Positions 29,305-34,884 of a stretch of 40,751 nt of DNA are shown piece by piece. Source of the stretch: Candidatus Poribacteria bacterium. Its GTDB lineage: Bacteria; Poribacteria; WGA-4E; WGA-3G. The notes beneath the pieces are model-generated. The model worked only from the letters and a program-made list of their open reading frames with translations. It had not been told where the DNA came from and searched no databases. Numbering within the stretch: position 1 is the first letter of the stretch; every line of letters begins with the position of its first letter. Made by a program: the position numbers and the translations under genes. The DNA lies in contig JAAXHO010000275.1 in the NCBI GenBank assembly GCA_012270795.1, positions 1 to 40,751 of the forward strand, written 5' to 3'.

Positions 29305-31503
29305 TCATTCTCCAATAGGAATTTTAAAAATGCCTTTTTCATCTGTATTGATATAAAAATGATTGTCATGGATAGTAAAATTTTGAACCCTTTCCGGTAT
29401 TGCAGAAGTAATTTCCTTCCATTTATCGTTATGATCCAAAAGATAAACACTTTTCCTATCAACCCGTATAGTTTATTTCCATCCACAAAGAACAGATCAA
29501 TTTCAATTTCTCTGCCGGAATTATCTTTCATCACATACCATTCTTCACCAGTATCTGATGTTAATACCCTCTGTAAGTAGCAACGTATACTTTTGATTCT
29601 ACAATCTCTATGTCTTGGAATCCTATCAATTGAATTGGTATAATAGGTGTTATATCCATCCAGTTTTTTCCGTCATCAACTGATTGAATGAGATGTGCGT
29701 CTCCGCGTCCAACAAATATGTTATTGTCCGAAACTGCAATAGTTAATCTTCCGTAATCAGGCTCCTTACCAAAATCTAATTCTGTATTTGTCCACTCTGA
29801 GTCACCGATTTCAGCTTTGAATAAATGTTCGTTAACTTCCAAATAGAAAGTATTCTTATTGCCTGCCAAGGTACGAATCCTCGTCCTATTTAGACGTGCC
29901 ATCAGAGCTCTTATCTGTTCTTCAGACAGTTCGGTTTCTTCGTCAATATTAGGAAGAACATCTTTTTCAATTGGCTCCATCCCTAACTTCTTGATAAATG
30001 ATTCTCCACCAATTTCGGGTAATTCTTGAATTGGAACAAACTCATCACCATCAGAAGACATTTGGCAAATGCGTATATTTTCAAGACTATCACGAGCAAG
30101 TGCATAGAAATTATCATCTACGACAGTGAATTCTGCAGGATAGTAGCCTGTGCCTTTACCAGAATCAATCTGAACTGGCAACCATGTTTCTCCGTTGTCT
30201 GTGGAGTAGACGATTTCTCGGGGCGTTTTTGCATATAGTCTGTTATTGTATGAGACCAAATCTCGTATTTCTGATCCTACAATACCTTTCATAAATTTTT
30301 GCCATGATTCACCACCATCTATTGAACGTAGTATTTGATAGTTTCCCTGTTGGTAAAAGTATTATCATTTATCGCAACTATGGGAGAATCAGGAAAGGGG
30401 GGTGGATTTTCAGGGTGACCAAGATTAGTCCATGATTTTCCTCCATCCCTTGATCGTATGGTTTGCATTCCAAATGCTAATACCGTTTCCCCTGAAACCA
30501 ATAAACCGAATTCCTCACCTAACGAATAAAGTTCAGTAAGTTTCGGTGTAATTTCTATCCAAGAATCTCCCAAGTTGTCTGATCGGAGTATTTTCCCGCC
30601 GATATCCTTCCATCGATTTAATCCTTTGTTTGATTGTAACGCTTTTAACCGTTCTGATCTATCAACTGCAATACTAATATAGAGTGTCTTATTAGAAACT
30701 TCCATTGCAGCCACAGATTTAATACCTTCTTCATTTAACCTATGCCATGTATTTGATTGTAGACGATAGAGTCCATCCTCCGTACCGACAAACAAGGTTT
30801 TTTTAATTGTACTCATAGAAGTAATTGTTTGGTTTTCCAATCCATTACTTAAAGGTAACCATGGATGTCCATATCCGAAAGAATGCATCACTCCTTCTTC
30901 ATGGGCAAGGAAGAATCCATCCTGATTTATTATCAGTTCAATGATAAAACCGTCAAAGTCTGGAAAATATGAAAAAATACTCCATGTAAAGCCATCGTCA
31001 CCTGATACATATATCTCTCGTCTATCAGTCAAATAGAGTTTTCCATCCCATTCTGACATCGGCATTTTGGGAAAACCTTCTAATGGAATACTGTTGTTAA
31101 TTTGTTTCCATCCACTCTTGTCCTCTAAAATTCGGTATACTCCAGTTGAGGAAACAGCAAAGAGTGTTCCTTTTGATGAAACAAATAGTTCCTTTAGTTC
31201 AGTGCATTCAGGGCCCTGAACCTGAGTCCATGTGTTTCCTTCGGTCTTGGGTTTAAGTTGGTTTTTTCGTTCTGCAGCAGATATGTTTAAATCGTTATCA
31301 GACGGTTTCGTGACAATGGCTTGGTGTTTGCTACATCCGCTTAACAGGCATAAAACCAGTATTGCACTTGAACAAACTGTTCTCCAAGACATTGATGTTT
31401 TCTCTCTTGATGCGACTATTGGTCTGATATTAGCAATTTTTTCCAGAATTTTCTTAGCTAAACTTGAGGAATACTGGAAGCAGATTAATTTCTTTAAAAA
31501 CAA
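29305..31503 (-). pseudogene. Degraded paralogue of the sigma/propeller protein (sigma domain lost, three frameshifts)
   Basis: The first frame (30319-31503) starts at a TTG behind AAGGAGG and has a membrane segment (SAILVLCLLSGC) and Asp-box repeats. It is followed by frames at 29561-30292 and 29305-29535 that continue the same protein. Alignment by eye to the intact gene at 31877-34726 places three single-base losses: a T in a T run near 30355, a G near 29572, and a G near 29445. No in-frame nonsense codons are seen otherwise and the restored end reads KGIFKIPIGE, matching KGIFNIPIEQ of the intact copy. The sigma domain is absent, although a few codons upstream in frame (ending KEESP) resemble the tail of region 4 in the intact protein (KKEEP). 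Probably a recently inactivated duplicate. Confidence 0.85.
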
Positions 31504-31584
31504 GGGACTTTCCTCCTTCGTCTGTTTGTGTGTCTGCTTAAGACGGTTAGATTTAGAATGAATGTGAGTTCGGTTTCAATGTGT

Positions 31585-31626: not shown

Positions 31627-31760
31627 CAGGACTTACGCAAATTTGGGTGTTCCTGTTTAGAATTTTGTTTTTTTCAAGGATTGTATCCTTGTTTTTTGTC
31701 ATTTTCAGGGATTTACCCCCCCCTTATCCCCCCGCAAGCGAGGGGAATGCGTAAGTCCTG
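31627..31760. mobile_element. MITE-like element, 134 bp, with 13-bp inverted ends and 6-bp target duplication
   Basis: The ends are perfect inverted repeats CAGGACTTACGCA (31627-31639) and TGCGTAAGTCCTG (31748-31760). They are flanked on both sides by ATTGAA (31621-31626 and 31761-31766), a target-site duplication. The interior has no reading frame. The first 38 bases recur with a few changes at 40714-40751. Ends of the type GGACTTACGCA are familiar from cyanobacterial and other IS elements; the mobilising transposase is not in the window. Confidence 0.85.
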
Positions 31761-31876: not shown

Positions 31877-34726
31877 CTATTGTTCAATAGGAATATTGAA
31901 AATGCCTTTTTTTCCTGTATTGATATAAAACTTTTTTTCATGAATTAAAAAATTTTGAACCCATTCCGGTATTGCAGAAATAATTTTCTTCCATTTATCG
32001 TTATGATCCAAAAGAAAAACACCTTTCCTACCAACACCGTACAGTTTATTTTCATCCACAAAGAACTTATGAATGGCAACATTCTTACCAGTAACATTAT
32101 TCATCACATGCCATTTTTCACCAGAATCTAATGTTATTGTTCCTTTGTTAGTGGCTACATATACGTTTGATCCTACAATCACTATGTCATTGAATATTTT
32201 GAATTGAATAGGAAGGTCGGATGTGATATTCTTCCAGTTTTTACCACCGTCAACAGATTGAATAAGATGGTTGTCATTTCTTCCAACATAGATATTCTTA
32301 TCAGAAACGGCGATCTTAACCCCATAATTAGAATCACTTTTTTCGAAATCAAATTCTGTATCTGTCCATTCAGTTGCACCTATAGTTGCTTTAAACAATC
32401 TACCGTTAGAAACCAGATAGAACGTATTTTTACTGATTGCCAATGTACCAATTCTTGGTAAATTTAGTCGTTTTTTCATGGATTCCAATATTTTTTCAGA
32501 TACATTGTTTTCTTCATCATCTAATTTCTTGAAAAACAATTCTCCACCAATTTCGGGTAATCCTTGAATAGGAACTAACCCAGTTCCATCAGAAGCCAAT
32601 TGACATATACGAACTCTGTTGTTTCTATCACGAGCAATTGCATAAAAGGTATCATCAGCGACAGTGAATTCTGCAGGATAGTTGTCTGTGCCTTTACCAG
32701 AATCGATCTGAACTGGTCTCCATGTTTTACCTTCATCAATGGAGTAGACGACTTCTTCTGCGGTTTTCGCATAAAGTTTGTTATTGTATGAGACCAAATC
32801 TTGTATTTCTGATCCTATTATACCTTTCATAAATTTATGCCAGGATTCACCACTATCAATTGAACGGTTAATCTGATAAATTCCGCACTTATAAAAAGTA
32901 TTGTCGTTTATTGCGAGCATAGGAGATTCACTATATTCATTTATATCTTTGATTCTGCCGAGATAAGTCCAAGATTTTCCACCGTCTCTTGACCGTAAGG
33001 TTTGCATGCCAATTACTAATACCGTTTCACCAGCAACAAGCATGTTTAAATCAAGGGTCAATGCGAGTGGATTGCTGGATTTGGGTGTAATATTCTCCCA
33101 AGAATCTCCCAAGTCGTCTGAGCGGAAGATTTTGCAATTCCCAGAATTTCTTGTAAGCATTCCTTTGATTACATCTGTTGTTTTTGGAATGAATTTGTCT
33201 CTATCAACAGTTGCAATATAAAGTTTATTTTTAGAAACTTCCATTGTAGCAACCTCTGATTTAATATTGTCTTCATTCAACCTGTGCCAAATTTGTTTCT
33301 TCAGGCGATAGAGTCCATCCTCTGTACCAACAAACAGGGTGTTACCAATTGAGTTCATTGAAGTTATTTTTTTGTTTTCTAACCCATTGTTTAGGGGTTT
33401 CCATGGTTGTCCAAGTTCCTCAGAATGGAAGATACCATCTTCGTTTGCTAAGAAAAATCCGTCCTGATTTATTATCAATTCAACTGTACGTCCTTTTGGA
33501 ATGTTTGAAACAGGATTCCAATTAACGCCATTATCTATTGATCCATAGATTCCTCTGAAGGTAGTAATATATAGTTTTTCATCCCATTCTGCTATTGGCA
33601 TTTTGGAATAACCAATTAGCTCCGTGCTACTCTTCATGTGTGCCCAACCACTATGATCGTCGGTAATTCTATAGACACCAGTTGAGGAAACGGCAAAGAG
33701 TGTTCCTTTGGATGAGACAAATAAATCACTTATTTCTGCGTATTCTGGTCCTTGAACCTGAGTCCATGTGTGTGCATCGGTTTTTACTGTGGGTAGATTT
33801 ACCTGTGCTTCAGCAGCTAAAACTGAGTCGCTGTGGTCTTTTCCTATACGATTATTAACACCAAAAGCAATAGCATTTCCGATTTTACGCTTATTATTTG
33901 GTTTTGATCGATCTTCAAAGACAATTGATGTATCAACGAGTTCTATAGTTGCTTCGGTTTCTGCTTCCAAATCATAGGGTTCGTTGAAAAGGGTTTGGTA
34001 TCGTGTACTTGCACCTAACAAGCAAAAGATCAATACTGCGGCAGAACATACTGCTGCCCACGGTAACAAAGGTTTACTACTTGGTGAGGGTGTCGGTTTG
34101 ATGTTAGTAATCTTCTCCATAACCTTTTTAGTAAAGTTCGTTGGGAGTTGAACGTTATTGAGTGTTTCACGAATCATTGGTTCCTCCTTCTTTAGTCGTT
34201 GACGTGCTCTTTGCAACCTACTTTTGATAGTATTTACAGATACGCCTAATAATCTACTAATCGCTTCGGATGTCATTTCACCGAGATAGTGAAGTGTCAC
34301 AACGGTACGTTCACTCTCTGGTAATTTATTCAGAAGTTTTTTAACAAGTTCTTGTCGTTTTTCTGTAGCAGCTATTTCATGCTGTTTTGCTAAATAGGCT
34401 TCATAAGCGTTTTTGTCTAAGACTTTCTTGTTTGTGTCTTCTATTGATTGCATAATAGGTTTCTTCCTTCTGTGCCAATCTGCACAAAGTCGACTGGTAA
34501 TGACATATAACCAACCCGCAAATTGGTGTGGTTTTTTTAGCGTTGCCAGTTTTTCGTATGCCTGGAGGAAAGCATCTTGAGCAATTTCTTCTGCAATTTG
34601 AAAATCTCCAATTTTCCGCCAGGCGAGTGCATGTATTCCCTTTTGGTATTTTTGAACCAAGACGCTAAAAGCTTTGTCGTCACCAGATAGAATGCTATGA
34701 ATCAATGCAACATCATCTTTTTCCAT
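31877..34726 (-). CDS. Transmembrane ECF sigma factor fused to an extracytoplasmic Asp-box beta-propeller
   Basis: A 949-residue fusion. Start ATG at 34726 has GGAGG 8 bases upstream. Residues 5-88 are sigma-70 region 2 (core DFQIAEEIAQDAFLQAYEKL) and about 128-180 region 4 (helix-turn-helix MTSEAISRLLGVSVNTIKSR). A Lys-rich linker leads to one hydrophobic segment at 220-239 (LPWAAVCSAAVLIFCLLGAS). From about residue 317 to the end there are BNR/Ycf48-like repeats with Asp boxes S-x-D-x-G-x-x-W: for example SIDNGVNW, RSRDGGKSW, RSIDSGESW, YSIDEGKTW, QSVDGGKNW. Positive charge before the membrane segment predicts the sigma part inside and the propeller outside. ECF sigma factors with C-terminal sensor-like extensions are known in Planctomycetes and relatives. 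An AAGGAGGA-ATG lies inside the gene at the domain junction (near 34180), hinting at former separate genes. No separate anti-sigma gene is adjacent. Confidence 0.88.
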   Translation of the reverse strand: MEKDDVALIHSILSGDDKAFSVLVQKYQKGIHALAWRKIGDFQIAEEIAQDAFLQAYEKLATLKKPHQFAGWLYVITSRLCADWHRRKKPIMQSIEDTNKKVLDKNAYEAYLAKQHEIAATEKRQELVKKLLNKLPESERTVVTLHYLGEMTSEAISRLLGVSVNTIKSRLQRARQRLKKEEPMIRETLNNVQLPTNFTKKVMEKITNIKPTPSPSSKPLLPWAAVCSAAVLIFCLLGASTRYQTLFNEPYDLEAETEATIELVDTSIVFEDRSKPNNKRKIGNAIAFGVNNRIGKDHSDSVLAAEAQVNLPTVKTDAHTWTQVQGPEYAEISDLFVSSKGTLFAVSSTGVYRITDDHSGWAHMKSSTELIGYSKMPIAEWDEKLYITTFRGIYGSIDNGVNWNPVSNIPKGRTVELIINQDGFFLANEDGIFHSEELGQPWKPLNNGLENKKITSMNSIGNTLFVGTEDGLYRLKKQIWHRLNEDNIKSEVATMEVSKNKLYIATVDRDKFIPKTTDVIKGMLTRNSGNCKIFRSDDLGDSWENITPKSSNPLALTLDLNMLVAGETVLVIGMQTLRSRDGGKSWTYLGRIKDINEYSESPMLAINDNTFYKCGIYQINRSIDSGESWHKFMKGIIGSEIQDLVSYNNKLYAKTAEEVVYSIDEGKTWRPVQIDSGKGTDNYPAEFTVADDTFYAIARDRNNRVRICQLASDGTGLVPIQGLPEIGGELFFKKLDDEENNVSEKILESMKKRLNLPRIGTLAISKNTFYLVSNGRLFKATIGATEWTDTEFDFEKSDSNYGVKIAVSDKNIYVGRNDNHLIQSVDGGKNWKNITSDLPIQFKIFNDIVIVGSNVYVATNKGTITLDSGEKWHVMNNVTGKNVAIHKFFVDENKLYGVGRKGVFLLDHNDKWKKIISAIPEWVQNFLIHEKKFYINTGKKGIFNIPIEQ

Positions 34727-34884
34727 TTGAATTCCTCCAAAAAGTTTAGGTTTACGATATATAGTGACGTAATTTTGAAGCGTAAATGGTGCATAATCTT
34801 AAGAAAAAACGTAAAATGCCCATAAAATTATTCTGTAAATGCTAATTTAATCGTAAGTTGCCACATAAGTAGCACAATCTTTAT

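Follow-up and report, generated by a model that had tools for sequence, protein, structure and literature searches.

A membrane-tethered ECF sigma factor fused to an Asp-box twin propeller in Candidatus Poribacteria: a possible one-protein receptor

In a stretch of 40,751 nucleotides (the window) from Candidatus Poribacteria, a sponge-associated lineage, one gene joins a complete ECF sigma factor, a predicted membrane helix and a large Asp-box ectodomain in a single chain. This architecture, its conservation as a fusion, an ECF-type promoter, a non-random start codon context at the joint and the presence of M50 proteases in the host lineage are all seen at the level of sequence. From these features we propose that the product is a membrane-held sigma receptor in one chain which would be released by proteolysis, and we put the probability of this reading at about 0.5. 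The features of the locus are as follows.

34762 to 34793, minus strand: predicted ECF-type promoter, with -35 element TGCACCATTT (34784-34793), a spacer of 14 nt and -10 element CGTCACTA (34762-34769), from PWM and pattern scans
34734 to 34738, minus strand: Shine-Dalgarno (SD) sequence, GGAGG, of the annotated start
31877 to 34726, minus strand: fusion gene of 949 amino acids (ECF sigma, joint, membrane helix, stalk, Asp-box ectodomain), from the open reading frame, Pfam and full-length orthologues
34460 to 34660, minus strand: Sigma70 region 2, residues 23-89 (Pfam Sigma70_r2, 1.3e-11)
34193 to 34348, minus strand: Sigma70 region 4, residues 127-178 (Pfam Sigma70_r4_2, 2.4e-17)
34175 to 34189, minus strand: candidate nested start, AAGGAGG (34183-34189), 5 nt and ATG (34175-34177, Met184), from the joint SD statistics
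34016 to 34072, minus strand: predicted membrane helix, residues 219-237, N-terminus inside, from hydropathy
33767 to 34015, minus strand: disordered stalk, residues 238-320 (AlphaFold2 pLDDT mostly below 50)
31880 to 33766, minus strand: Asp-box (BNR/GH74/Ycf48-like) twin-propeller ectodomain, residues 321-949, from Pfam, AlphaFold2, PDB search, Foldseek and the Asp-box count
29314 to 31560, minus strand: degraded tandem copy next to the intact gene

The gene is a single uninterrupted frame of 949 codons at exactly 31877-34726, and its ATG is preceded by GGAGG 7 nt upstream. Residues 1-182 constitute a complete sigma factor of the ECF type (group 4), in which Pfam finds regions 2 and 4 only, as the earlier note on this DNA had proposed, and no region 1 or 3; the nearest solved structure to this domain is SigW (3.2e-33, PDB search). 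The single membrane helix claimed in the same note is predicted at residues 219-237 (19-residue hydropathy of about 2.0), and charged residues are absent from its core in 170 of 171 relatives of the same build. Since the net charge drops across the helix in 145 of these 171, the N-terminus is predicted to lie inside. The segment between sigma region 4 and the helix spans 31-46 residues (median 40) in the 171 relatives and in none of them contains a zinc finger (HxxxCxxC), which rules out a remnant of a zinc-finger anti-sigma factor at the joint. Pfam likewise finds no anti-sigma family in the 949-residue protein, and no separate anti-sigma gene lies nearby.

Behind the helix, Pfam assigns the C-terminal part to Sortilin-Vps10, BNR and YCF48. 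In an AlphaFold2 model based on 63 relatives (mean pLDDT 77), the sigma helices and an all-beta region at 321-949 are confident, and the segment at 212-317 is disordered or not confident. The protein contains eight S/T-x-x-x-G-x-x-W boxes and six strict S-x-[DN]-x-G-x-x-W boxes, the latter compared with 0.0125 expected in shuffled sequences (shuffle maximum 1). By Foldseek, the best matches of the ectodomain are GH74 enzymes, with E values down to 9.2e-20 and TM-scores (target) up to 0.60, and a single-sequence search of the ectodomain against the PDB gave no match on which the GH74 catalytic acid/base aspartates could be aligned. The BNR/Ycf48 repeats described earlier over about 630 residues are thus borne out, but they model as a GH74-like fold of about two propellers (a twin) rather than one. 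With the predicted topology, this part would be located outside the inner membrane.

The covalent connection of sigma factor, membrane segment and propeller is well supported by comparison with relatives. A full-length orthologue, 80% identical along its length, is present in isolate jk18x9bins.65, the frame carries no stop or frameshift at the joint, and the fusion recurs in nearly all close relatives; none of the observations that the earlier note had named as speaking against a true fusion (a break at the boundary, its absence from relatives, a missing helix) was made. It can be argued that a frameshift, an assembly join or a decaying gene only resembles a fusion, because a decayed tandem copy adjoins the gene and some distant relatives are broken. 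We consider this extremely improbable, since stop-free full-length orthologues occur in independent genomes, a single-contig genome has over 20 paralogues, and all parts of the gene are under purifying selection; a frameshift or assembly join is refuted by the orthologues and this selection. Between this protein (P0001) and the orthologue, dN/dS is 0.08 in the sigma part, 0.38 in the joint and stalk, and 0.44 in the propeller, a combination of rigid output and fast-changing outside part as expected of a receptor.

The adjacent degraded copy has lost its sigma part save for the end of region 4 (SNRLKQTHKQTKEESPLF), which is followed by a frameshift-broken membrane-propeller part, and it retains AAGGAGGA ahead of a TTG. 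Between this copy and the intact gene lies a mobile-looking, MITE-like inverted-repeat element of 132 bp (31628-31759) with AGGACTTACGCA termini, and similarly spaced pairs of such repeats occur in about ten other Poribacteria loci.

Of 85 genomes from the phylum Candidatus Poribacteria, 70 carry relatives at a threshold of E <= 1e-40. Family members number about 18 in the host genome and, by the count of strong matches, about 23 and 38 in the single-contig genomes G046 and G083, respectively, while the genomes G028 and G029 have one to three. A few members have no helix (L042, L043 and L089), which counts against the receptor reading. A plasmid collection gave partial matches only, all to the sigma part. 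In several places, four to five sigma fusion genes with differing propeller or lectin partners stand in tandem, which suggests expansion through local duplication and domain exchange. These arrays are located as follows.

G000:C178:37173-50483 (L031): tandem array
G046:C1:3044000-3061000 (L083): tandem array
G046:C1:4404000-4422000 (L084): tandem array

The upstream regions of the family share a promoter. When spaced 4-mers were counted without bias in the upstream regions of 163 genes of the membrane type, AACC-N17-CGTC ranked top (29 genes) beside low-complexity T runs, and refinement gave the family motif TGCAmCcTTT-N14-CGTCACTA (TGCA[AC]C[C]TTT), mostly 21-70 nt before the ATG. With a matrix trained on the same sequences that it scored, 121 of 183 family upstream regions exceeded the 99% shuffle quantile, and the same matrix gave one hit each in 183 reversed and 183 coding controls. 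The copy of the present gene, TGCACCATTT-ACGCTTCAAAATTA-CGTCACTA, ends 35 nt before the ATG and scores 29.3 against a 99.9% null quantile of 11.7; its AAC-like -35 and CGTC-like -10 elements predict a promoter of the ECF type. We then probed the regulon by whole-genome pattern scans. A strict pattern matched 16 times in two genomes (2 in the backward control), and 9 of the 16 matches stood at fusion genes, one of them a damaged copy. A pattern specific for the orthologues matched 15 times in 18 genomes (0 in the control), at 11 orthologues of this gene, 3 genes for S55 lipoproteins and 1 gene for a small membrane protein. The search for a shared motif at target genes suggested in the earlier note therefore did yield a motif, but mainly in front of the fusion genes themselves. 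Because the promoter precedes most of the family genes scored, this one included, and because the pattern scans support it, the fusion gene is likely autoregulated, with the attached sigma factor presumably reading its own promoter.

In this orthologous group, the SpoIVB-like S55 lipoprotein gene is probably a further target. The encoded protein matches the S55 (SpoIVB peptidase) family weakly, just above the Pfam cut-off, and contains a GMSGSPV motif; a fourth S55 gene has a variant copy of the promoter, and in one genome (G033) the S55 gene lies downstream of the sigma gene, about 0.5 kb away and in the same orientation. Against such a target, the S55 gene of the host genome is broken and most S55 homologues of the genus are without the promoter. 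In Bacillus, SpoIVB triggers intramembrane proteolysis, and one may speculate that the S55 lipoprotein has a role in the release of the sigma factor.

The sigma module is combined with a wide range of partners. By Pfam, these are the Asp-box propeller, WD40, CarboxypepD_reg with C-type lectin, M16, beta/gamma crystallin and DnaN, to which a TPR-like type judged by eye is added, and some WD40 members have a membrane helix while others do not. A tree built from the sigma parts of 39 members from two genomes, in which one truncated member was classed as Asp-box by position only, shows at least 14 switches of partner type, where 6 is the least possible. The DnaN and M16 partners are hard to view as sensors, which counts against the receptor reading. 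The fusions to a second DnaN sliding clamp have GGAGG with ATG at the joint, and the copy in G046 has the TGCA-CGTC promoter; DnaN is also fused to FtsZ without a sigma factor in G028. A more distant sigma group is fused in one open frame to a second copy of FtsZ, and in one genome (G083) to FtsZ and DnaE domains; the genomes concerned also carry FtsZ of normal length elsewhere. One of these fusions (L095) and a WD40 relative (L045:14243-16933) have in common a different upstream pattern, TTAAACC...CCTCTwTA. As a speculation, the FtsZ fusions could be decoys for inhibitors of cell division or replication. The DnaN and FtsZ fusions are listed below.

L092:2254-3990 (G046): ECF sigma with second DnaN sliding clamp
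L222:4195-5910 (G083): ECF sigma with second DnaN sliding clamp
L047:2388-4169 (G000:C245): ECF sigma with second FtsZ copy, one open frame
L093:1047-2792: ECF sigma with second FtsZ copy, one open frame
L095:1009-5064: ECF sigma with second FtsZ copy, one open frame

At the joint, around residue 184, the sequence reads AAG GAG GAA CCA ATG. The earlier suggestion that this internal SD and ATG indicate an origin from two genes is upheld, and beyond a hint of a relic the codons are biased towards ribosome binding. Among the relatives, an SD match of 6 or more precedes 37 of 124 internal ATGs at the joint and 6 of 934 elsewhere. As the peptide K-E-E-x-M itself favours an SD match, synonymous codons were shuffled for comparison. 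The mean joint match was 5.64 compared with 3.74 in the shuffles for 11 clusters below 65% identity (z=5.2), 5.72 compared with 3.81 for all 115 sequences, which are related to one another (z=14.4), and 5.08 compared with 3.83 for the helix-less families (z=3.0). A joint SD stronger than the amino-acid sequence requires suggests a nested start that would yield a sigma-less receptor. One relative without the sigma part (L178) has an intact membrane-propeller frame with AAGGAG and ATG at exactly the joint position. Besides this relative, the search for split versions found frameshifted copies (L183/L189 and L184) and one copy interrupted by Ns (L187), but no clean two-gene form of sigma and partner. 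An ATG at the joint is missing in 9 of 20 clusters of the membrane type, and the close orthologues L052, L053, L054 and L061 have no strong SD at the joint ATG. We read these data as a nested start that would be used in many members and that was originally the start of a separate gene.

Taken further, the sigma genes of Poribacteria may be nested genome-wide, a generalization to which we give slightly less than even odds. One self-promoted ECF module would be combined in frame with at least seven kinds of partner (propellers of the Asp-box and of the WD40 type, a lectin/regulatory-like part, M16, crystallin, TPR-like and DnaN domains and, on the more distant sigma, FtsZ), and each gene would give two products, the sigma-partner chain and, through a conserved internal ribosome binding site, the partner alone, so that the dosage of sensor and sigma would be set within one cistron.

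The internal start, the promoter and the diversity of partners also bear on a different explanation, in which the sigma factor mainly switches on its own gene, the C-terminal partner acts as the effector and is translated for the most part from the internal start, and the full-length chain, present at a low level, serves for autoregulation, so that the propeller need not sense anything. Such a self-regulating payload gene would account for 9 of 16 strict promoter matches at the fusion genes themselves, for partners as diverse as DnaN, M16, crystallin, lectin and TPR-like domains, for joint SDs at least as strong as those of annotated starts (mean 5.64 compared with 5.05), and for the sigma-less frame of L178. 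However, constraint is strongest on the sigma factor (omega 0.08), the frame of the fusion is maintained although an internal start would do without it, the joint ATG is missing in nearly half of the clusters as given above, and true sensor ECF factors normally autoregulate too. We regard this explanation as unlikely, yet deserving of serious attention.

Under the preferred reading of a tethered receptor, sigma regions 2 and 4 would reside in the cytoplasm, tied through a 40-residue segment and one helix to an external twin propeller. On contact of the propeller with its ligand, which may be a polysaccharide or a peptide, the exposed stalk would be cut, and a site-2 (M50) protease would then cut within the membrane. 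The freed sigma factor would join RNA polymerase and fire its own promoter and probably the S55 lipoprotein gene, while the second start at the joint (AAGGAGG-ATG) would also make a membrane propeller without sigma. The M50 site-2 proteases found in all five genomes checked count for proteolytic release, and the lack of a conserved protease neighbour in the clustering of neighbour genes counts against it. No constant neighbour gene of any kind was found across 95 loci, and no regulatory link is seen to the neighbours in the window (HD, AIRS, XseA, YmdB, adenosine deaminase, heparinase-like). Genes for ABC-2-type permease-like proteins lie near 14 of the 95 sigma fusion loci; they adjoin sigma-TPR-like and sigma-DnaN genes (downstream of the sigma gene in L150; L221/L222).

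No recognisable anti-sigma domain was found between sigma region 4 and the helix in the 171 members, and the membrane tether alone may not silence the sigma factor, which counts against the receptor reading. It is conceivable that the holoenzyme initiates transcription while still tethered and uncleaved, and that the switch is ligand-induced clustering or a conformational change, as in regulators of the ToxR/CadC type. The single helix, the short cytoplasmic joint, the missing anti-sigma domain and the fact that no protease gene consistently travels with the family are in line with this, but a tether would hinder the sigma factor from moving with or leaving RNA polymerase after initiation, and IutY, the only experimentally studied proteolysis-activated sigma fusion named in the review PMC8999054, leaves the membrane. 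We therefore consider initiation at the membrane quite improbable.

Compared with the known ECF systems described in PMC8999054, the family has several shared and several distinct features. The absence of a separate anti-sigma gene, which the earlier note saw as a departure from the norm, holds at this locus but has precedents in ECF48/52/53, ECF243 (IutY) and ECF57, which carry fused C-terminal regulators. First, IutY of Pseudomonas putida also unites a sigma factor with a membrane helix and an external part in a single chain, and its release by Prc and RseP was shown experimentally, which provides a precedent for proteolytic release here. Its extension, however, is a fused membrane anti-sigma factor of a cell-surface-signalling system, whereas here only about 40 residues connect sigma region 4 to the helix and a twin propeller forms the outside part. 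Second, the actinobacterial ECF48/52/53 groups have one or two membrane helices in the extension (one is predicted here), and SCO4117 of Streptomyces coelicolor has a carbohydrate-binding domain besides its membrane helices and outside part; their zinc-finger (ZAS-like) domain is absent from all 171 poribacterial members. Third, ECF57 has propeller repeats behind the sigma factor, as do the many WD40 paralogues here, but the present protein carries Asp-box repeats, and the two cysteines that link sigma2 and sigma4 in ECF57 occur together in only 44 of 171 members (Cys81 is there in this protein, but region 4 lacks a cysteine).

A plain member of such a group with a C-terminal extension, either of the ECF57 WD40 type or of the ECF48/52/53 zinc-finger membrane type, would follow the same general idea and would fit the WD40 propellers of many paralogues. 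As the zinc finger is absent and the cysteine pair infrequent, filing the family under ECF48/52/53 or ECF57 is unwarranted, and PMC8999054 mentions no Asp-box twin propeller for either type; we consider such membership decidedly improbable, although the way of working may resemble theirs. Outside the sigma factors, GH74 xyloglucanases (PDB 2cn3) and Ycf48/sortilin propellers share the twin-propeller fold and the Asp boxes, but here the propeller is membrane-tethered and fused to a sigma factor. The Bacteroides hybrid two-component sensors BT4663 and BT4673 similarly tie a large propeller ectodomain to a cytoplasmic output, which is a two-component system instead of a sigma factor, and their structural overlap is weak (Foldseek TM-score 0.24-0.30).

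In conclusion, it was already known that ECF factors can carry fused C-terminal regulators or WD40 extensions (PMC8999054). The new elements are a tethered sigma factor that bears an Asp-box twin propeller, the extent to which the family has expanded and swapped partners, the promoter that its genes share, and the selected start at the joint. Among the papers searched, none joins ECF sigma factors with Poribacteria; the 2014 Poribacteria genome paper mentions the abundance of WD40 but not sigma factors. The family looks like a lineage-specific class of one-protein switches with about 20 to 40 genes per genome. If this is true, the phylum has exchanged the separate anti-sigma factor for a receptor that is part of the sigma chain itself, and has amplified this design to some 20-40 copies with swappable outside domains, which would be the transcription-initiation counterpart of one-component receptors. 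The family makes it testable how a covalently tethered sigma factor stays silent and is then released without an anti-sigma domain, for which the promoter motif can serve as a direct reporter and the joint SD and ATG as a clean test of nested translation. In sponge symbionts, fast-evolving twin propellers coupled to transcription would be candidate detectors of the glycans of host or neighbours.
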